In this document: one piece after another, positions 6,806 to 45,673 of the stretch | Position numbering within the stretch: the stretch's first letter is position 1 | Layout of the letters: each line of letters begins with the position of its first letter | Source of the DNA: Roseateles koreensis | GTDB lineage: Bacteria; Pseudomonadota; Gammaproteobacteria; Burkholderiales; Burkholderiaceae_C | Assembly (NCBI RefSeq): GCF_028595305.1 | Contig: NZ_JAQQXS010000003.1 | Coordinates: 248,001 to 312,000 of the forward strand | Direction of reading: 5' to 3' | Length of the DNA: 64,000 nucleotides | Program-made: the position numbers and the translations under genes | The notes under the pieces: generated by a model | Told to the model about the DNA's origin: nothing | The model's database searches: none | The model's input: the letters and a program-made list of their open reading frames with translations, nothing else

Positions 6806-7906
6806 TCAGGGCTTGTGACCAGCCGCCACAAAACCTGTGACTTCCAGGCCGTAGCCGGTCATGCTGGGCATGCGGCGCGGGCTACCCATCAAGCGCATGC
6901 GGTGCACGCCCAGCTCGCGCAAGATTTGAGCCCCGACGCCGTAGGTGCGCAGATCCACGGCTTTGGCGGGTGGCTCGCTGCTGGGCTCGGCTTGCAGCCG
7001 GGTCAGGAGGCTGTTGCCGTCTTCACCGCAGTTGAGCAATACCGCCACGCCGCGGCCTGTGCTTTGCAATTCAGCCAGCGCAGCAGCCAAGGGCCATGAG
7101 TGGCAGTTGGTGCTGAGTTCCAACAAATCAAGCACGGACAACGGCTCGTGCACGCGCACCAGCACTTCGTCTTCGGGCTGCCATTCGCCAAGGCTCAGCG
7201 CCAAGTGGGTGCCGCCCGTGCGGTCCTGGAAGATGTTGCAGTCGAATTCGCCCTGCACCGTTTGCATCTTGCGATGGCCGATGCGATGCACCAGGGATTC
7301 GTTGCGGCTGCGGTATTCGATCAGGTCGGCAATGGTGCCGATCTTCAGGCCGTGCTCTTTGGCGAACTCGACCAGATCTGGCAGGCGCGCCATGGTGCCG
7401 TCGTCTTTCATGATCTCGCAGATCACGGAGGCGGGGGTCAGGCCGGCCATTTTGGCCAAATCGCAACCCGCTTCGGTATGGCCTGCGCGCATCAACACGC
7501 CGCCGTCCTGCGCTTGCAGGGGGAAGATGTGGCCGGGTTGAACCAAGTCACGGGCGACCGCATCGCGCGCCACGGCGGCTTGCACGGTGCGCGCCCGGTC
7601 GGCGGCAGAAATGCCGGTGGTGACACCTGTGGCCGCCTCAATGGAAACGGTGAAGGCGGTGGCGTGTTTGGTCCCGTTGCGGCTCGCCATGGGCGGCAAG
7701 TTCAGGCGCTCGCAACGTTCGCGGTTGAGGGTGAGGCAGATCAAGCCACGACCAAATTTGGCCATGAAGTTGATCGCTTCCGGGGTGACGTGGTCGGCTG
7801 CAAGCACGAGGTCACCCTCGTTCTCGCGGTCTTCTTCGTCAACCAGGATAACCATGCGGCCAGCGGCCAGCTCGGCGACGAGCTCGTGTACAGGTGATAT
7901 GGGCAT
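6806..7906 (-). CDS. ribBA: 3,4-dihydroxy-2-butanone 4-phosphate synthase with degenerate GTP cyclohydrolase II-like domain
   Basis: A 366-residue two-domain protein. Residues 1-~200 are a canonical DHBP synthase (RibB), with [16 protein letters not shown] binding Mg and ribulose 5-phosphate, [13 protein letters not shown], and the closing CEIM..DG. Residues ~205-366 align in position with GTP cyclohydrolase II, but the three Zn-binding cysteines (HSECLTGD..RCDCG in RibA) are absent. In their place is [14 protein letters not shown]. The GTP-contacting REGRNIGL motif is also lost (CGEDGNSLL). The protein is therefore expected to have RibB activity only. Such RibB-X fusions are common in Burkholderiales; a true ribA must be elsewhere. 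Confidence 0.93.
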
Positions 7907-10246: not shown

Positions 10247-11485
10247 TCAGCGCACGCCGTTGGGTTGATGCAGCACCGTGGCCGTGTTGCTGAAGAAGCC
10301 CAGGCTGGCGTCGATCGCGTGGCCTGCCGGGCAGTTTTCTGATCCCGGGATGACCAGAAAGTTTTGTCGGGTCAGGGCGCCGCTGACTTTGCTGTAGCTC
10401 AGGGGATGCTCCGCGTTGCTGATGCTGCCATTGCCGTCGTAGTCTGCGCTGTACCGGCAGATGTTTCTGGCGCTGGTGCCGCTGCCATTGCTTTGGCCGG
10501 TCAAGGGAATGCCGGTCAGCGTCAATTGCCCCGACCAGATGGGCGGCGTGCCGCTGTTGGGGTAGACCACGCAGTAGTAGCTCACATAGGTCTGGGTGGC
10601 GGGCGTGGTAAGGGGCGTGTCGCTGAAACACTGGTAGCTGGGCATCATGCTGCTGGAGGTCGTCAAGGCGAGGTTGAGCCCCATCGGAATAGCCTGCCCG
10701 ATGGGGTTGCCCGGGTCGCTCGGCGAATGGTCTGAAAAACGCACAAAGCCGCTCAGCAGGTAGCCGAATGCGTTGCCTCTGCAGGCGGCGACGTCGGCCG
10801 CTGCCAGATTGCTTGTCGGTGTGCTGGGGATGTTGCAGATGCCGGTGATGACGCCGGTCAGATTGTTGAAGACCCAAACAACGTCGCCTGAGGCCAGGGG
10901 CTTGAACGCGCTGCTGCCGTCGCCAAGATCCTTGGCGTTCGTGGGGATGCTGGCCTCACGGTTGGCCGGGCGCCGCAGGGGCGAAGACACCGGGGCGATC
11001 CCCAGGGCGCCACCCAATAGTGGGTCGGCCCGGGACAAGACGCTGTCAAGGCTGACGGTTTGAGTGCCTTCGCTGCGGTCAAGCCAGCTCACTTCAACAC
11101 GGATTGACTTGCGAATGGGCTCCACTGAGTCGACCACCGTCCGGGTTACGGTGAAGGTGGCATTGGTCCCGTTGTCAAAGGTCGCGACCACGCCGTCGGA
11201 GCCGGGTGTGGCGATGTCGTCAAACGCCAGAGTGTTGGCGTTCGCCGGGTTGGGCGTGGCGAGTTGAGAGTAGCTGCGCAGCTTCTCCATTTCTTGCTGC
11301 GCCAAGCGCACTGCCTCGCCGCGTTGTTTGGCCAGGTCGGAGCTGTGGCGCAGATTGCTTTGCAGGCCGACCAGCGCCAGCATGCCAAAGGCCATGATCA
11401 GCAGGGCCACCAGGGCTTCAAGCAGCGCAACACCACGCGCGCCATGCTGTGGCGTGTTGAGTGAGGGGCGTGCGGGCCGGTTCAT
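10247..11485 (-). CDS. pilV: PilV-type minor pilin, greatly extended
   Basis: A 412-residue protein with a type III prepilin N-terminus: ARG followed by VALLEALVALLIMAFGMLALVG, with the Glu at +5 after the predicted cleavage site. PilV proteins are usually ~150-200 residues; here ~200 extra residues follow, with several cysteines and the loop DYDGNGSISNAE near residue 350, which fits the EF-hand pattern DxDxNGxIxxxE. The start is placed at ATG with MNRPARPS, 10 bp after the pilX stop. It is the last gene of the minor pilin cluster. Function: part of the tip complex that primes type IV pilus assembly. Confidence 0.85.
   Translation of the reverse strand: MNRPARPSLNTPQHGARGVALLEALVALLIMAFGMLALVGLQSNLRHSSDLAKQRGEAVRLAQQEMEKLRSYSQLATPNPANANTLAFDDIATPGSDGVVATFDNGTNATFTVTRTVVDSVEPIRKSIRVEVSWLDRSEGTQTVSLDSVLSRADPLLGGALGIAPVSSPLRRPANREASIPTNAKDLGDGSSAFKPLASGDVVWVFNNLTGVITGICNIPSTPTSNLAAADVAACRGNAFGYLLSGFVRFSDHSPSDPGNPIGQAIPMGLNLALTTSSSMMPSYQCFSDTPLTTPATQTYVSYYCVVYPNSGTPPIWSGQLTLTGIPLTGQSNGSGTSARNICRYSADYDGNGSISNAEHPLSYSKVSGALTRQNFLVIPGSENCPAGHAIDASLGFFSNTATVLHQPNGVR
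10409..10444 (-). other. EF-hand-like calcium-binding loop within PilV
   Basis: These twelve codons encode D-Y-D-G-N-G-S-I-S-N-A-E. Positions 1, 3, 5 and 12 hold Asp, Asp, Asn and Glu, position 6 is Gly and position 8 Ile, an exact match to the canonical EF-hand/dockerin loop. It lies in the non-pilin extension of PilV. Calcium binding is inferred from the pattern only. Confidence 0.6.
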
Positions 11486-38989: not shown

Positions 38990-39064
38990 GGGCGGTTAGC
39001 TCAGCGGTAGAGCACTGCCTTCACACGGCAGGGGTCGCAGGTTCGAACCCTGCACCGCCCACCA
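38990..39064 (+). tRNA. tRNA-Val (anticodon CAC)
   Basis: A full cloverleaf of 75 nt including encoded CCA. The acceptor stem is GGGCGGT/ACCGCCC, the anticodon stem CTGCC/GGCAG encloses TTCACAC (anticodon CAC at 39022-39024), and the T-arm is GCAGG-TTCGAAC-CCTGC. All stems pair without mismatch. Confidence 0.96.
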
Positions 39065-39071
39065 CATTCAT

Positions 39072-39085
39072 CAACAAATTTGTTG
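39072..39085. repeat. Perfect 14-bp palindrome between the tRNA genes
   Basis: CAACAAATTTGTTG is self-complementary and lies 7 bp after the first tRNA. It could be a processing or weak termination signal. Confidence 0.4.
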
Positions 39086-39105
39086 GTTTGTGAGGCTGCG
39101 ATTGG

Positions 39106-39145
39106 GGAGAGTACCGAAGCGGTACGAAACCGATTTCAAAATCGG
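39106..39145 (+). pseudogene. tRNA-Ser-like 5' half molecule
   Basis: GGAGAGTACCGAAGCGGTACGAAAC resembles the acceptor 5' strand and D-arm of a tRNA-Ser of the kind typical of Firmicutes and phages. It is followed by an anticodon-stem-like palindrome CCGAT-TTCAAA-ATCGG, with a 6-base loop instead of 7. The last bases (39144-39145) are the first bases of the next tRNA-Val, so the 3' half is absent and the two appear fused. It cannot form a functional tRNA. Confidence 0.35.
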
Positions 39146-39218
39146 GCGATTAACTCAGCGGTAGAGTGCCACCTTCACACGGTGGAAGTCACATGTTCGA
39201 TCCATGTATCGCCCACCA
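39144..39218 (+). tRNA. tRNA-Val (anticodon CAC), diverged second copy
   Basis: A 75-nt cloverleaf including encoded CCA. Acceptor GGGCGAT/ATCGCCC, anticodon stem CCACC/GGTGG around TTCACAC (anticodon CAC at 39176-39178), T-arm ACATG-TTCGATC-CATGT. The anticodon is the same as the first copy, but the stems differ at many paired positions with compensation, so this is not a recent duplication. It may be functional. Confidence 0.88.
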
Positions 39219-39266
39219 AATTCGCCTCGGCAATCGCATCGAGGCAGCCCTTCAGGGCGCATAGAG

Positions 39267-39301
39267 TCCACCTCGCCAAGCATGGCGACGGTGGATTTTT
39301 T
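39267..39301 (+). terminator. Rho-independent terminator after the tRNA genes
   Basis: TCCACCTCGCCA-AGCA-TGGCGA(C)GGTGGA forms a 12-bp stem with one bulged C, directly followed by six T. It would terminate the tRNA transcript. Confidence 0.85.
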
Positions 39302-39474
39302 GTGTCTGCGCGTTGTATCTGCGGTCGACGAATGCGTTGGGTGCGTCGCTCTTGTGCCACCCCGCACGCTGGTCTGAACTGCCCGCCGTCTTCGTGCGCT
39401 ACTCGAGATCGTCAACGCGCTCCTCTCGCAACGCCAGGCCTTGGCCTCTGTCATAGGTAAACCCCTTGTTGTGG
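39302..39474. other. Non-coding stretch between terminator and xylosidase operator
   Basis: No plausible gene is seen on either strand; open frames here have arginine- and serine-rich translations without family character. With the tRNA terminator before it and the operator after it, the tRNA-to-GH43 gap is 337 bp. Confidence 0.6.
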
Positions 39475-39499
39475 TTAGTTTGTTCGTCGAGCAAACTAA
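39475..39499 (+). promoter_or_regulatory. XylR (ROK)-like operator
   Basis: A 25-nt inverted repeat, TTAGTTTGTT and AGCAAACTAA arms around a 5-nt centre (CGTCG). The xyl operator of Bacillus and Staphylococcus has arms TTAGTTTGTT and AACAAACTAA around a 5-nt centre, so 19 of 20 arm bases agree with the same spacing. It ends 56 bp before the start of the GH43 gene, where a repressor would block the promoter or elongation. Confidence 0.7.
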
Positions 39500-39555
39500 T
39501 GTCGGCCGAATTGCAGCAAGCTGTGCTTCGAGTTGACAAAAATAGGGGGGCAGCG

Positions 39556-41175
39556 ATGTTGACGCGAAGGGCATTCAAGGCGGCCTTGGCTGGGGCACTC
39601 GTCGCGCAAGGGTCGGACGCGCATGCGGTGACTCGTGCCGCGAATCGTGCGCACCCGGTGGGCTCGTCCGGTGTTGGTCTGGAGGGTCAGCGGCGGGCTG
39701 ACCTCGGCCGGGGGCGTTATCTCAATCCCATCGTGTCCGGGGATCACGCGGACCCGACGGTGTTGAAGGACGGCGCGAACTACTACATGACGTTCTCGTC
39801 TTTCCAGTCTTGCCCAGGTGCCGTGATCTGGCATTCGCAGGACTTGGTGAGTTGGGCGCCCATCGTGGCGGCGCTCCAGGTGCCAATTGGCAGCGTCTGG
39901 GCGATGGACCTGATCAAGCACGAAGGACGCTATTACCTGTATATCCCAGTCCTGGCGGATGCTGGCACCGGCATTTATGTCGTCTACGCGGATGACATTC
40001 GCGGCCCCTGGAGCGCACCAATCGATTTACACGTTCTCGGCTGCATTGATCCTGGGCATGTGGTCGGTGAAGACGGGCGACGCTACTTGTTTGTCAACGG
40101 CGGAAGGCGTGTGCGACTGAGTGCCGATGGGCTGGCCACCGACGGCCCCGTGGAGTCAGGCGCTTGGCAGCCCTGGCAATATCCGGCGGACTGGGTGGTT
40201 GAAATGTTTGCGCCCGAGGGGCCCAAATTGTTTCGCCGGGGGGAATGGTTTTATCTGGTGTCGGCGGTTGGTGGCACGGCTGGCCCGCCGACAAGCCATA
40301 TGGTCACGGCGGCGCGTGCACGATCCGTGCATGGGCCCTGGGAGCATTGCCCGCAGAACCCGATTGTCAGAACGCAAGATGCCAACGAGCCTTGGTGGTC
40401 GCGCGGCCATGCCAGCGTGGTCGAAGGCCCGGGCGGCGATTGGTGGATGGTCTATCACGGCTACGAGAACGGCATGCGAACCTTGGGTCGACAGACGCTG
40501 CTGGAGCCGATCGAATGGACGGTGGACGGCTGGTTTCGGGCCCGTGGCGGCCGACTGGACAAGCCCTTGCCCAAGCCCAAGGGCGGGATGGCCGGCCCTG
40601 CCGGCGTGCCTTTGTCCGATGCGTTTACCGGGCCGCGGCTGGGGCTTCAGTGGGGCTTTCACGCCGCCGGTAGGGACGAGGCGGCGCGGGTGCGATTCGA
40701 CGGTGACGGGCTTTTGCTGGAAGGCAAGGGCCGCGCATTCGGCGATTGCTCTCCCTTGACATGCATCGTGGGTGATCGAAGTTATGAGGTCGCCGCTGAA
40801 TTCGAGATCCAGGGCGGCGTTCATGGCGACTTTCACTGCGGTCTGGGTGTCTTCTACAACGAGAGGGGTTATGCCGGCATCGCTTTCAGCCGCTCCCAGA
40901 TGTTGACTTATGGCTACGGAGATGAGCAGCGCTGGATGCGCGAAGAGATGGCGGTCTCAAAGGTCAACATCCGCATGCTCAACCGTGAAAACGTCTTGAC
41001 CTTTCACTATTCGGTCAACGGACAACCGTGGAAACAACATGCATGGCAGATGGAAGTCTCAGGCATGCATCACAACGTTTTTGGCGGCTTTCTCAGCTTG
41101 AAGGCGGCCCTGTTCAGTGCCGGTGTGGGTGAGGTGCGTATTCGAAATTTTGTATATCGGGGGCTCCAGTCATGA
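39556..41175 (+). CDS. GH43 family glycoside hydrolase, beta-xylosidase/arabinofuranosidase-like, Tat-like signal
   Basis: A 539-residue secreted protein. The N-terminus MLTRRAFKAALAGALVAQGSDAHA is a Tat-like twin-arginine signal. The five-bladed propeller carries the GH43 triad: Asp66 in HADPTVLKDG (base), Asp118 in WAMDLIKHEGRYYLYIP (pKa modulator), Glu221 in FAPEGPKLFRRGEWFYLVSA (acid). From ~residue 350 a C-terminal beta-sandwich follows (the GH43_C2 type seen in beta-xylosidases). It overlaps GH39 by 4 bp (ATGA) and lies behind the XylR-like operator. Substrate is expected to be xylo- or arabinoxylo-oligosaccharide. Confidence 0.88.
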   Translation: MLTRRAFKAALAGALVAQGSDAHAVTRAANRAHPVGSSGVGLEGQRRADLGRGRYLNPIVSGDHADPTVLKDGANYYMTFSSFQSCPGAVIWHSQDLVSWAPIVAALQVPIGSVWAMDLIKHEGRYYLYIPVLADAGTGIYVVYADDIRGPWSAPIDLHVLGCIDPGHVVGEDGRRYLFVNGGRRVRLSADGLATDGPVESGAWQPWQYPADWVVEMFAPEGPKLFRRGEWFYLVSAVGGTAGPPTSHMVTAARARSVHGPWEHCPQNPIVRTQDANEPWWSRGHASVVEGPGGDWWMVYHGYENGMRTLGRQTLLEPIEWTVDGWFRARGGRLDKPLPKPKGGMAGPAGVPLSDAFTGPRLGLQWGFHAAGRDEAARVRFDGDGLLLEGKGRAFGDCSPLTCIVGDRSYEVAAEFEIQGGVHGDFHCGLGVFYNERGYAGIAFSRSQMLTYGYGDEQRWMREEMAVSKVNIRMLNRENVLTFHYSVNGQPWKQHAWQMEVSGMHHNVFGGFLSLKAALFSAGVGEVRIRNFVYRGLQS

Positions 41176-42758
41176 ATGGATTTAGACCCTGGCGCCGCCG
41201 CGAGCTGCTGTCGGCGGCAACTGTGTTTGCGCTTGCTAACGACAATAGCTTTGCGGCCCGGAGCCGGCGCGAGATCGCGTTGGACCTGACCCAGGCCACC
41301 CGGCCGATGGACCGTTTTTTTGACCACTGCGTCGGGTCGGACTACCCGGGTACGCTCTATCGCGAAGATTCGCTGGCGCAACTGAAGGAGGCTGTGGCGG
41401 AGCTAGGATTTCGCTACTTGCGCTTTCACGCGATCTTTCACGATGTCTTCAAGACCGTGCGGCAAGAGGGCAATGGGCAACTGGTCTTTGACTTTACAGG
41501 CATAGACAAGCTTTATGACGCGATGCTGGCGCTCCGCATCCGCCCCTTTGTCGAACTTGGGTTCACGCCCCAGGCCTTGGCAACGTCGAATGCCAAGATT
41601 TTTTACTGGGCTGGCGGAACGTCGCATCCCGAGCCTGAAGGCTGGCAGCAACTGATCGACGCCTTCACCCGGCACCTGCTGCAGCGCTACGGCGCGGCGG
41701 AGGTGCGTCAGTGGTATTTCGAGGTTTGGAACGAGCCCAATCTCGACGGTTTTTGGGAGGGGGCTGACCGTCAGGCATATTTTGAGCTTTACTCGCGCAC
41801 TGCCAAAACGATGAAGGCGATCGATCCGCACCTGCGCCTTGGTGGGCCCTCGACGGCCGGGGCCGCCTGGGTGCCGGAGTTTCTGGCCCACGCCAAAGCG
41901 ACCGATACGCCGGTGGACTTCATCACCACGCACACTTATGGCGTGGACCATGGCTTTCTTGACGAGTTCGGTGTGGATGACCGTCAGTTGTCACCGTCGC
42001 CGGACGCCATCGTGGGCGATGTACGTCGGGTTCGCGCGGCGATTCAGGCGTCGCACCTGCCGGGGCTGCCGCTGTTCTTTACTGAGTGGAGCACCAGTTA
42101 CAACCCGCGTGACAAAGTTCATGACAGCTATATGAGCGCCGCCTACGTGCTGACCAAGCTCAAGCAGACGCAGGGGCTGGCTCAGTCGATGAGCTACTGG
42201 ACTTTCAGTGACTTGTTTGAAGAGCCCGGGCCTCCGGATGCCGCTTTCCATGGTGGTTTCGGCATGATGACCCGTGATGGCATTCGCAAGCCGATCTGGT
42301 TTGCCTACAAATACCTGGCGGCCTTGTTGGCGCGGGAAATTCCAACCCATGACCCGTACTGTTGGGCCAGCACAGACGGTGGCAGTGTGCGGGCTGTTCT
42401 ATGGGATTGGCGCAACCCGGATCAGAAGGTCAGCAATCGCCCGTTTTTTGGCTCGCTTCAACCCGCCCGCGACGTGGGTACGGTGTCCATCCGTTTGCAG
42501 GGGCTGCAAGCCGGCCGCTATCGGCTTGAATGGCATCGCGTGGGTTACAACGCCAATGACGCCCAATCCGCCTATCTGCAGATGGGGGCGCCGAAGGACC
42601 TTGACGTTACACAACTGCAGCAGTTGCAGGCGCTCACCATGGATGTGCCGGAGTCGCAACGAGAACTCCAGGTCACAAAGGCGGGCGCCTTGACGCTGAC
42701 CATCGATTTGCGCAGTCATGACGTGCTTCAACTGCGACTGGACAGGCTGGCGGGATAG
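41172..42758 (+). CDS. GH39 family glycoside hydrolase, beta-xylosidase-like, Tat-like signal
   Basis: A 528-residue protein with a Tat-like start (WRRRELLSAATVFALANDNSFAA). It shows the GH39 clan-A (beta/alpha)8 barrel: acid/base Glu188 in YFEVWNEPNLDGFW and nucleophile Glu305 in LPLFFTEWSTSYNPRD. The C-terminal ~110 residues look like the beta-sandwich of GH39. GH39 xylosidases release xylose from xylo-oligomers. Its start overlaps the GH43 stop, so the two are made together, probably in the periplasm. No sugar transporter or xylose catabolic gene is nearby. Confidence 0.88.
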   Translation: MNGFRPWRRRELLSAATVFALANDNSFAARSRREIALDLTQATRPMDRFFDHCVGSDYPGTLYREDSLAQLKEAVAELGFRYLRFHAIFHDVFKTVRQEGNGQLVFDFTGIDKLYDAMLALRIRPFVELGFTPQALATSNAKIFYWAGGTSHPEPEGWQQLIDAFTRHLLQRYGAAEVRQWYFEVWNEPNLDGFWEGADRQAYFELYSRTAKTMKAIDPHLRLGGPSTAGAAWVPEFLAHAKATDTPVDFITTHTYGVDHGFLDEFGVDDRQLSPSPDAIVGDVRRVRAAIQASHLPGLPLFFTEWSTSYNPRDKVHDSYMSAAYVLTKLKQTQGLAQSMSYWTFSDLFEEPGPPDAAFHGGFGMMTRDGIRKPIWFAYKYLAALLAREIPTHDPYCWASTDGGSVRAVLWDWRNPDQKVSNRPFFGSLQPARDVGTVSIRLQGLQAGRYRLEWHRVGYNANDAQSAYLQMGAPKDLDVTQLQQLQALTMDVPESQRELQVTKAGALTLTIDLRSHDVLQLRLDRLAG

Positions 42759-42812
42759 CTCAGGCATGGCGCAGCATGTGTTGTGCCGCGCGCCGATTCT
42801 TAGCGTACTGTC

Positions 42813-43589
42813 TCAGTTTCGATAAGAGTTGACGATCTTGTTCATCTCGCCAGATCTCTTGAAGTTGTCCAACTCGGCATTCATTTTTTCAATGAAATCA
42901 GCCTTGAAGGTCGCAGCCGATGTGGCGCTGTAAGCAATGTGCGCGGTCTGTTCGGCGAGTCGAACCACTTCGCTGATTTTCACGTCGGCAAACGCCGGGT
43001 CAGCGTGTAGCTTTCTGAGTGAGTACAAGATGGAGTCGCGGTCGTTCGCATAGCAATGGATGTGGTTGGACGCCAGCATCCGCAGGTTGCGTTCGTTGCC
43101 TTTGACCTCACTCATGACGAACTTGCCGTTCTTCGCGGCCTCGGTGAAACCTTCTGAAAGCATGAACCCCGCATTCACGCCGATCGTCAGGCCCGCAAAG
43201 TCGTCAGGAAATTTCATGACCGCTGACTTGATGGCATCCTGCCGGCAGAAGATCACAACCTCTTCTGTATACAGCGGCACGGAGTACGCTTGGATGAAGT
43301 GGCGGCTCTTGTTGATGTAGGGTGGAAACAGCGCAAACGATGCCCCTGTTTTCAGCTCCAACAAGCCGCGCCGCCAGTTGATGGACTTCAACTCGATTTC
43401 ATAGGCTGGTTTGAGCCTTTCGGCCACGACGCGCAGCGCGTCGACGTAGATGCCCTTGAAGTGACCGGCTTCAAGATACGAGTAGGGCGCATAGTCTTCG
43501 TCCCCATAGATGACGACTTTTTCGGCGGCGCGAGATGCCACGGCCAGCCAGGGCGCCACGACAAGCACAAGCCATGCAATGGATTTCAT
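42813..43589 (-). CDS. Family-3 extracellular solute-binding protein (orphan)
   Basis: A 258-residue periplasmic protein. Signal peptide MKSIAWLVLVVAPWLAVASRA is followed by EKVVIYGDEDYAPYSYLEAGHFKGIYVDALRVVAERL, the family-3 (PF00497-type, ABC or histidine-kinase input) start. The closing stretch is ADFIEKMNAELDNFKRSGEMNKIVNSY. No ATPase or permease is nearby. The start is chosen at the signal peptide; a long in-frame reading upstream is non-coding in character. Confidence 0.83.
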   Translation of the reverse strand: MKSIAWLVLVVAPWLAVASRAAEKVVIYGDEDYAPYSYLEAGHFKGIYVDALRVVAERLKPAYEIELKSINWRRGLLELKTGASFALFPPYINKSRHFIQAYSVPLYTEEVVIFCRQDAIKSAVMKFPDDFAGLTIGVNAGFMLSEGFTEAAKNGKFVMSEVKGNERNLRMLASNHIHCYANDRDSILYSLRKLHADPAFADVKISEVVRLAEQTAHIAYSATSAATFKADFIEKMNAELDNFKRSGEMNKIVNSYRN

Positions 43590-43880
43590 AGCGTATTTTG
43601 AGGCGACTATCGACCTGATGCGTTGACTCCTACGTTTGTAAACGACTTTTTGTTTGGCGGGTGAAGTGCTTGTTACCGATGGACCGAGATAGTTTCGTGG
43701 CCCGCGCCTTTCGGCGTTATATCGCAAGCATTTGGCACCCCTTGGGGCAGTACCCTGGCCCAAGTTTCCAATGACCGGCTGGCATTGTGGAGCGCCCAAT
43801 ACAAACGGTATGGGGATGCGCAAGCGTTGTCTGCTCAGTAGGAGATGTTCGATCTAGGTTGCCGTTTGGCAACCTCTCTG
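43590..43880. other. Upstream region of the first orphan binding-protein gene
   Basis: The 291 bp separate two same-strand binding-protein genes and are AT-richer than the core genome. They contain the short repeat CGTTT-GT-AAACG (43633-43644) near the probable promoter of the 42813 gene. No further gene is seen. Confidence 0.45.
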
Positions 43881-44744
43881 TTACTTGGGCAGTAAACGCC
43901 CTGCACCGCCGGAGGCGGCAATGGCGGCGTCAATGCGCCCCAACAGCCTGGGTGACATTGCCTTGTTGCACATCAGATAGGAAGCTTGGCCGACCACGTC
44001 CGCAAATACGGTGGCGTCCAATGGACTTGTTGGATTCTCGGTTCGAAAGGCCTCAAACAGGTCCTGGGGCAATAAGGTGAAGTCACCCCGATTTTGCGTC
44101 AGCATGCGTAGAACCTGGCCTGCAGGCACGCTGGGGCGCTCCACATGGCCTCGCAGCTTTGCGATCATCCCGTCGATCTGGTTACCAAGAGAGAGACCGC
44201 CGGCGAATAATGCGCGCAAATCGGTCTTCTGCGTAAAGTCGTTAAGCGTATGGAACTGCCTGACCGCACCCGTCACTTCCGGGCGGCTGACCACCACCCA
44301 TGGCAAATCCAGGAAAATCGCCTGCGAAAAAACAAATAGGGCTTCTCGCTCTTTCGTCTTGTAAACGCCGATGGAACACGCAGGATTTCCATATTGCAGC
44401 GTTTCCTGATCCCGGCGTTTGAGCGGCATCTCGATAAATCTTGCATGAACCCCGGCCCGTGCCAACACCAACTGGGCTTTGTCATACAGCGGCCCTCCAA
44501 TGCGCCCGTCGCCATTTGGAGATTTCTCGCTCTCGACCAAAGGGGGACGATTGCTGAAGTGAATGGTCAACTCCGCCTGTTCCTCACCCACCGGGCCAGT
44601 GCCCGCATGGCCTGCTGGTAAAAAAATCAATAGCGCCGCCGCTGCGACACCTCGCCACCGTCTTCGCACAGAATCAACGTTGCCAGCGGAAGGTGTATCT
44701 ACCCCAAGGCGTTGTGAAATGGCCTGGCTGAACGATTCTTGCAT
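43881..44744 (-). CDS. Periplasmic solute-binding-like protein (orphan)
   Basis: A ~287-residue protein. The N-terminus has a basic stretch, RRRWRGVAAAALLIFLPAGHA, which fits a signal peptide 27 residues from the chosen start. The mature part begins ELTIHFSNRPPLVESEKSP, with GGPLYDKAQLVLARAGVHARFIEMPLKRRDQETLQYGNPACSIGVYKTKEREALFVFS, consistent with the type II periplasmic-binding fold. The conserved cysteine pair CSIGV and LMCNK may be oxidised. The start is uncertain (also ATG at 44762). No transporter partner is nearby. Confidence 0.7.
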   Translation of the reverse strand: MQESFSQAISQRLGVDTPSAGNVDSVRRRWRGVAAAALLIFLPAGHAGTGPVGEEQAELTIHFSNRPPLVESEKSPNGDGRIGGPLYDKAQLVLARAGVHARFIEMPLKRRDQETLQYGNPACSIGVYKTKEREALFVFSQAIFLDLPWVVVSRPEVTGAVRQFHTLNDFTQKTDLRALFAGGLSLGNQIDGMIAKLRGHVERPSVPAGQVLRMLTQNRGDFTLLPQDLFEAFRTENPTSPLDATVFADVVGQASYLMCNKAMSPRLLGRIDAAIAASGGAGRLLPK

Positions 44745-44836
44745 GCGCCGATTCTGCCCCATCAAATCGAGCGATCTACAAGCTGGGTAACTCTGGAGAC
44801 ACCCTCCAACGCCTGTTTGTTGGACGACGTGAATCG

Positions 44837-45673
44837 TCAATCGCGAACACCGTATTTTTCTTGAATCGCAGATAGCTCACCACTGCCGCGCATGCGTTGA
44901 ACGGCTTGCTCAATGCGAGTCGCCAATTTTGGCTCAGTTTTCCTCGAGACCACGATGCAAACATCTTCGCGATTGAATCGAGTAGGGATCAGTTTGATTC
45001 GTCCCTCCAGCCCATCTTTATGGAGTTGCTTGCGCAATACCGTGCCGCCGTAATAAACAAAACGGACGCGGCCCTTGAGCAGTTTTTTCAATGTGTTCTC
45101 GACCGACACCGCCCCGTCATCAACGACCAGTCCTCCGAGCGCTTTCAACTGTTCAACATAGGCTGAGCCTCTCGGCACGCCGACTACACCCGCACCGCCT
45201 AGCGTTCGAATTTCATCAAACGTCTGGATTTCTATGGGGTCATCGCCCCTAACAGCCAGTTGCGTGAATTGCCGGTACAAGGGCGCAGAAAGTACGACAT
45301 ATTTTTCTTGACGAGCTTGATTGCGAACCAACCCAAAGAACACATCCAATGAGCCCGCCTCAAGTTCCAAATCAATGCGGCTCACAGGGCGCAACACCTC
45401 TTGTCCAACGAATTTCAAGGCCGGATCAATGCGTTCAATCGCTCGCATCACTTCGATACTCAACCCAGGGGCTGCGGCATTGTCAGGATCAAATTTGATG
45501 AGATTTTCTGACTGTCCGCTCGTTCTGATCAACGGTGTGTCGTCAAGCCCGAGGGCGAAACACGAAAACGCGCCCAAGCACAGGCAGATCCAAACTACCA
45601 ATCGACGCGCGCAGCTGCGGTGAAAATCATCGGCCCTCGCGAGTGAATGTGTGTAGGGAGAAATTGGATCCAT
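44837..45673 (-). CDS. Family-3 extracellular solute-binding protein (orphan)
   Basis: A 278-residue periplasmic protein. A long N-terminal signal region (RRLVVWICLCLGAFSCFALG) precedes the binding domain, which has APGLSIEVMRAIERIDPALKFVGQEVLRP and the closing IEQAVQRMRGSGELSAIQEKYGVRD, typical of family-3 solute-binding proteins. It is upstream of the 43881 gene by 92 bp. With the 42813 gene this makes three such genes in a row on the same strand, all without ABC components. Confidence 0.82.
   Translation of the reverse strand: MDPISPYTHSLARADDFHRSCARRLVVWICLCLGAFSCFALGLDDTPLIRTSGQSENLIKFDPDNAAAPGLSIEVMRAIERIDPALKFVGQEVLRPVSRIDLELEAGSLDVFFGLVRNQARQEKYVVLSAPLYRQFTQLAVRGDDPIEIQTFDEIRTLGGAGVVGVPRGSAYVEQLKALGGLVVDDGAVSVENTLKKLLKGRVRFVYYGGTVLRKQLHKDGLEGRIKLIPTRFNREDVCIVVSRKTEPKLATRIEQAVQRMRGSGELSAIQEKYGVRD

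Follow-up and report, generated by a model that had tools for sequence, protein, structure and literature searches.

The 25-nt near-palindrome TTAGTTTGTTCGTCGAGCAAACTAA, located upstream of a GH43-GH39 gene pair in the window (the whole 64,000-nt stretch of DNA analyzed), is very probably the operator of the ROK-family XylR encoded by the same genome, which would repress the gene pair until xylose releases it. The site was found exactly at the place, and with the letters, given in the first-pass annotation. We infer binding, repression and the exact promoter, as well as xylose as the inducer, the last because of the gene context and of what XylR does elsewhere (PMC12034463, PMC3750489 and PMC2873477; these articles, and PMC9104551 and PMC5343134 below, are cited from excerpts). 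Without xylose, XylR would occupy the operator, a site overlapping the likely promoter, and GH43-GH39 would be off; such a position of the operator would fit repression by blocking of RNA polymerase. Xylose freed from xylosides would bind the ROK domain and XylR would leave the operator, after which the genes for xylose catabolism would be expressed and the exported GH43-GH39 enzymes produced. The circuit looks like a real but fairly ordinary case of xylose control.

The two genes downstream of the site had been described as a xylosidase-type pair with a 4-bp overlap. Pfam searches confirmed the family domains of GH43 (PF04616, E 4.5e-83) and GH39 (PF01229, E 3.1e-90), both over the cut-off, and the genes share bases 41172-41175 (Table 1). 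No NCBIfam equivalog for GH43 or GH39 reached its cut-off. Family GH43 also includes arabinofuranosidases, and the two products are predicted to be xyloside-type enzymes. The program that listed the open reading frames favors a TTG at 39466 as the start of the GH43 gene, which would place the site inside the gene. We preferred the ATG at 39556 because an RR-type export signal, read from the translation, starts there and because several relatives align from residue 1-4 of the ATG start. The distance from the site to this ATG is 56 bases, as had been noted before.

Table 1. Features of the operator region, the regulator gene and the sites in relatives. Locations without a locus handle are positions in the window.
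Feature	Location	Strand	Basis
XylR-type operator (candidate), 25-nt near-palindrome	39475..39499	+	Pattern search; matrix score 30.7-30.8 bits
Weak -10-like hexamer TAATGT, overlapping the operator end by 3 bases; putative promoter element	39497..39502	+	Comparison with other operator promoters
Probable ribosome-binding site AGGGGG, 6 nt 5' of the ATG	39544..39549	+	Read from sequence
GH43 glycoside hydrolase, GH43_C2 domain, RR-type export signal; beta-xylosidase/arabinofuranosidase type	39556..41175	+	ORF list, Pfam
GH39 glycoside hydrolase, beta-xylosidase type	41172..42758	+	ORF list, Pfam
ROK protein XylR (G000:C13:28052-29320), on a contig other than that of GH43	L004:10049-11320	-	Homology search, Pfam
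Site in relative, before xylF	L048		
Sites in relatives, before GH43	L047, L168		
Site in relative, before GH39 65% identical to the GH39 of the window	L167		
Sites in relatives, GH5 (the frame of L170 starts 348 nt away)	L169, L170		
Sites in relatives, BNR-repeat proteins (same site and gene type in two genomes)	L162, L165		
Site in relative, MFS_2 transporter	L172		
Site among GH43 loci, before GH43	L064		
Site among GH43 loci, before a gene with an arabinofuranosidase C-terminal domain	L066		
Site among GH43 loci, between a ChvE-type binding protein and an aldose epimerase	L067		
Site among GH43 loci, similar site	L065		
Site among GH43 loci, xylR site of the locus	L056		

The site differs at one position from the arm pattern TTAGTTTGTT-N5-AACAAACTAA, and 11 of the 12 pairs of the full palindrome match, the symmetry extending through the centre. 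It is a 25-nt inverted repeat of the TTNGTTT...AAACNAA type, as described for the operator of XylR (PMC12034463, PMC9104551), with 10-bp arms and a 5-base spacer. The likeness to the Bacillus operator pointed out in the first-pass annotation was borne out, since the site agrees with the published xyl operator of Bacillus subtilis, TTAGTTTGTTTGGGCAACAAACTAA (PMC12034463), at 19 of the 20 arm positions and at 20 of the 25 positions overall. Dinucleotide shuffles of the window did not yield a match to the arm pattern at up to 3 mismatches (0 of 100 shuffles). When the whole genome (4,372,104 bases in 35 contigs) was searched with the Bacillus-type pattern at up to 3 mismatches, the GH43 site was the sole match, and the reversed pattern, used as a control in the same search, gave none.

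A regulator had been expected elsewhere in the genome, and a ROK protein is encoded together with xylB and xylA on another contig. This XylR is one of two ROK proteins in the genome (G000:C13 and G000:C12); it has an N-terminal winged helix-turn-helix domain (PF13412, 26.1 bits, cut-off 21.9) and a ROK domain (PF00480, 161.2 bits, cut-off 22.9). The patterns of the ROK family are the zinc motif CxCGxxGCxE and ExGH; XylR carries them at residues 262 and 249, respectively, and the second ROK protein carries them likewise. Among the solved structures, 30 distinct sequences match the ROK protein, and the one named XylR (4ija, E 6.7e-12) is too distant for base contacts. In the gene group xylR-xylB-xylA, the ROK gene overlaps xylB by 4 bp and xylA comes next, xylA and xylB each scoring over the NCBIfam cut-off. 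Farther along the locus are a TonB receptor gene, preceded by a stretch resembling a half-site (L004, about 6880-6900), and a gene with matches of the GH35/GH42 type. The stretch was discarded, having no matrix match of at least 9 bits. Divergent from xylR are a tryptophan-halogenase-like gene and a GH31 gene, which passes as alpha-xylosidase in NCBIfam. The former, a flavoprotein gene at L004:11552-13150 (PF04820, E 1e-175), has a relative at 8 of the 9 close xylR loci.

A second site, ATAGTTCGATCGATGAACTAACTAA, is present in the promoter of this xylR (L004:11365-11389), with 44 bases to the start codon at 11320. A symmetric consensus, which was composed after the sites had been seen, matched the genome at up to 3 mismatches at exactly two places, the GH43 site and the xylR promoter; of the further copies at xylose genes that might have been expected, this search revealed the one at the promoter of xylR-xylB-xylA and no third site. 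A looser pattern at 2 mismatches identified the same two places. In a set of 11 genomes, the symmetric consensus at up to 3 mismatches had a match in six and none in five, which are also XylR-bearing, and its reversed control had none in the 11 genomes.

We consider it quite improbable that a different sugar regulator, for example the second ROK protein, binds the site and that GH43-GH39 answers to another sugar. The presence of two ROK proteins in the genome leaves room for such a regulator, and positions 7 and 19 of the GH43 site depart from the close xylR sites; however, the motif is shared within the genome with the xylR promoter only, and the 20-kb region around the second ROK gene (L005) contains no matrix match of at least 9 bits. 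In addition, the helix at the corresponding position, by our own assignment, reads SPQTVANIT in the second ROK protein and TKSTVS in XylR. The second ROK gene adjoins a gene for a PfkB kinase, and its neighbors, judged from their translations, look like GH9, MFS and TonB receptor genes.

To characterize the motif of XylR, we searched for XylR over 250 genomes of the family, of which 38 matched at 1e-60 (48 match rows), and examined 30 loci. All nine loci of close ROK orthologues among them (70-100% identity, our own included) have a 25-nt site, which begins 67-85 nt before the estimated start of xylR. The family consensus of the close xylR sites is TTANTT(C/A)GT...CGAACTAW. Position 7 is C in five and A in four of the nine sites, T being absent; position 19 is G in every one of the nine and A at the GH43 site. 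The main matrix was built from the 8 distinct sites of the nine loci (two sites being identical), and an alternative matrix from the same 8 sites with the addition of one xylF site; the GH43 site was excluded from both. The GH43 site scored 30.7 bits on the family matrix and 30.6 bits when the xylR site of its own genome was left out, which falls within the range of the leave-one-out scores of the 8 matrix sites (23.0 to 41.8 bits). The best of 39.9 million positions simulated with the dinucleotides of the window scored 20.4 bits. Of the 21 distant ROK loci (39-51% identity), three have a match of at least 15 bits (31.2, 31.9 and 15.8 bits); xylB lies alongside in seven of the 21, just one of which has such a match, a weak one (15.8 bits). 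Because few distant loci have a match, the motif belongs to the close XylR group.

The first-pass annotation had also regarded the site as an example of operator conservation across phyla. The agreement in the arms stands, but at positions 7 and 19 the site has Bacillus-like bases that are atypical of the family, the B. subtilis operator scores just 18.7 bits on the family matrix, and the distant XylR-xylB loci are mostly without the motif. Among 369 genomes sampled from the class, 15 had the Bacillus-like pattern at up to 2 mismatches and 21 its reversed control, which is no enrichment; a broad conservation of this pattern across the class was rejected since the control was commoner. Judging from these sequence comparisons, the GH43 site does not simply represent the retention of a Bacillus sequence across phyla, and its affinity for XylR may be lower, given the A at position 19 and the non-family base at position 7. 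Bases like the TTTG or CAAA of the GH43 site also occur in relatives, for example at an extra xylR copy (L171) and at the GH39 gene of L167.

We also compared the promoters. In 10 of the 12 other operator promoters compared (those of eight xylR genes, the GH43 gene of L064, L065, L066 and the xylF gene of L048), TANNAT spans the end of the operator, the exceptions being TAATAA in L016 and TAATCT in L048. The hexamer after the GH43 operator of the window, TAATGT, is a poor -10, and a sigma-70 scan of 39200-42900 gave no promoter on the plus strand. By eye, a TTT-then-C-rich stretch (e.g. GTGTTTCCCC) was seen 14 nt before most of the xylR operators (loci L011-L019) and before those of L065 and L066, and was absent before the operators of the window GH43, the L064 GH43 and the L048 xylF. 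It is perhaps a further contact or an activator site.

It is very improbable that the operator is a relic, that is, that the gene pair was acquired with its operator and that the XylR of the host no longer binds it tightly, so that the genes are constitutive or silent. The palindrome is intact in 11 of its 12 pairs, its score is inside the leave-one-out range, and XylR and the GH43 site are both present in the genome, although the restriction of xylR and GH43 to one of the 18 genus genomes each, the poor -10 and the departures at positions 7 and 19 would be in keeping with such a history. That the site is a palindrome arisen by chance, or the hairpin of a terminator behind the tRNA genes, as its location between tRNA-Val and GH43 might suggest, has a negligible probability, being contradicted by the genome-wide search, by the shuffles, by the simulation (0 of 39.9 million positions reach its score) and by a terminator scan, which did not include the site among its predictions.

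Sites resembling the putative XylR operator are found at other sugar genes of relatives (Table 1). The looser pattern marked at least one place in each of the nine XylR-bearing genomes and 23 places in total, and its reversed control marked none. These places were found by pattern and only in part scored with the matrix. Eleven of them belong to xylR copies and another is the window site; among the remaining 11, nine are beside a recognized gene, one (L173) is without a recognized gene and one was not retrieved. The upstream region at L167 is common to the GH39 gene and a divergent Cu/Zn superoxide dismutase gene. Genomes with several XylR-like genes were observed, such as G070 (L160, L164 and L171), which has 4 match rows. 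The additional xylR copies are often accompanied by their own site (L164 and L171), and four of the five loci L189-L193 score at least 18 bits.

From the 173 relatives of the GH43 gene found, we analyzed 80 loci, and five of the 80 have a matrix match of at least 20 bits anywhere in the retrieved stretch. A same-strand GH39 gene lies downstream in 12 loci, and the site is directly before GH43 in L064 only. In L056, the site is at the head of a cluster with the order xylB-xylR, site, tryptophan-halogenase-like gene, GH31, GH43 and GH39. In L064, which is from Roseateles chitinivorans, the order is GH43-GH39-GH31, followed by a site identical to the own-genome xylR site; the fitting coordinates suggest that xylR is probably just beyond GH43-GH39-GH31, forming one cluster. 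The other 10 GH43-GH39 pairs had no match of at least 9 bits in the 1.4 to about 6 kb of upstream sequence retrieved. Seven of these 10 (L049, L050, L052-L055 and L075) have, directly next to or overlapping GH43, a frame that is 66-69% identical to the L172 transporter, so that GH43 is probably part of a longer operon; the remaining three (L051, L057 and L069) have another same-strand frame whose end is 20-71 nt upstream of GH43.

The co-occurrence of XylR and the gene pair was examined with 18 hand-picked loci among the 80. A close XylR (67-73%) was found in all 12 genomes with the GH43-GH39 pair in this hand-picked set, and also in all three genomes selected for the site in their GH43 locus (L065-L067). 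XylR was found at 1e-60 in none of the three comparison genomes without the GH43-GH39 pair (Massilia L058, L073, Dyella L076), the GH43 of which are 60-66% identical to that of the window; Massilia L058 is also of Burkholderiales. As judged from equal coordinates, some genomes occur under two handles (G262 is the genome of L056, G266 that of L065, G183 that of L066 and G276 that of L052), and the L056 site is part of the matrix, so that the lines of evidence based on relatives are not wholly independent.

The proposed circuit shares several features with known systems. As in B. subtilis, the operator is 25 nt long with 10-bp arms around 5 bases, and the ROK repressor goes with xylA and xylB (PMC12034463), whereas here the operator centre is symmetric, the order xylR-xylB-xylA is on one strand, and in the close relatives position 7 is C or A and position 19 is G. 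The ROK XylR of Thermotoga maritima controls xylose catabolism and xylan/xyloside hydrolases at separate loci (PMC3750489), and the likeness is in the layout of the regulon; it comprises seven operons there and two sites here. The group 1 XylR (ROK) of Clostridium acetobutylicum also recognizes a 25-bp inverted repeat, but its consensus, ACTTattAAAnnnnnTTTaaAAAgt, is unlike the GH43 site (PMC2873477); XylR motifs can vary widely within one phylum. An earlier description of this operator circuit was not found in the literature searched, RegPrecise itself being outside the search, and the words 'XylR' and 'xylose' are absent from the excerpted main text of a survey of proteobacterial regulons (PMC5343134). 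The circuit would be a testable two-site XylR regulon in a betaproteobacterium, with the regulator and the family motif named, and would link the exported GH43-GH39 enzymes to xylose control. For the biology of ROK proteins, the sites provide a natural series of operators varying at positions 7 and 19.

Within the genus, XylR was detected at 1e-30 in one of 18 genomes, our own only, and none of the 17 others, two of which are under 80% complete, had a GH43 match above 27% identity at 1e-30. The dnaQ gene was found in 16 of the 18 genomes, with lgt before it in all 16 and tRNA-Val (1 to 3 copies) after it in 15, the remaining locus ending early. Within the retrieved flank, which does not exceed 1.5 kb and is less in some genomes, GH43 is present beyond lgt-dnaQ-tRNA-Val only in our own genome. 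The simplest reading would be a gain of xylR and GH43 by this species, with loss elsewhere as the alternative. Among plasmid records, 787 have a relative of XylR and 153 one of GH43, all best places being under 60% identity, and no mobile carrier was found among them.

We tentatively raise the possibility of a movable xylose/xyloside regulon in Burkholderiales. It would consist of xylR-xylB-xylA and GH43-GH39, clustered in L056 and probably in L064, acquired, within the genus genomes examined, only by this species, and now located on different contigs but tied by the operator; the outer core of the operator would be shared by Bacillota and Burkholderiales, with the inner bases drifting (TTTG, TTCG and TTAG). 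If this were true, the shared outer core and the drifting inner bases would open the co-evolution of ROK recognition with the operator to direct tests.

In the window, two tandem tRNA-Val(cac) genes are located at 38990-39218, and the operator sits between tRNA-Val and GH43. The duplication of tRNA-Val was rejected as a trace of integration, as two or three copies are present in 9 of the 16 genus loci. At 42813-45673, after GH39, three successive minus-strand genes resemble those of periplasmic solute-binding proteins, judged from their translations.
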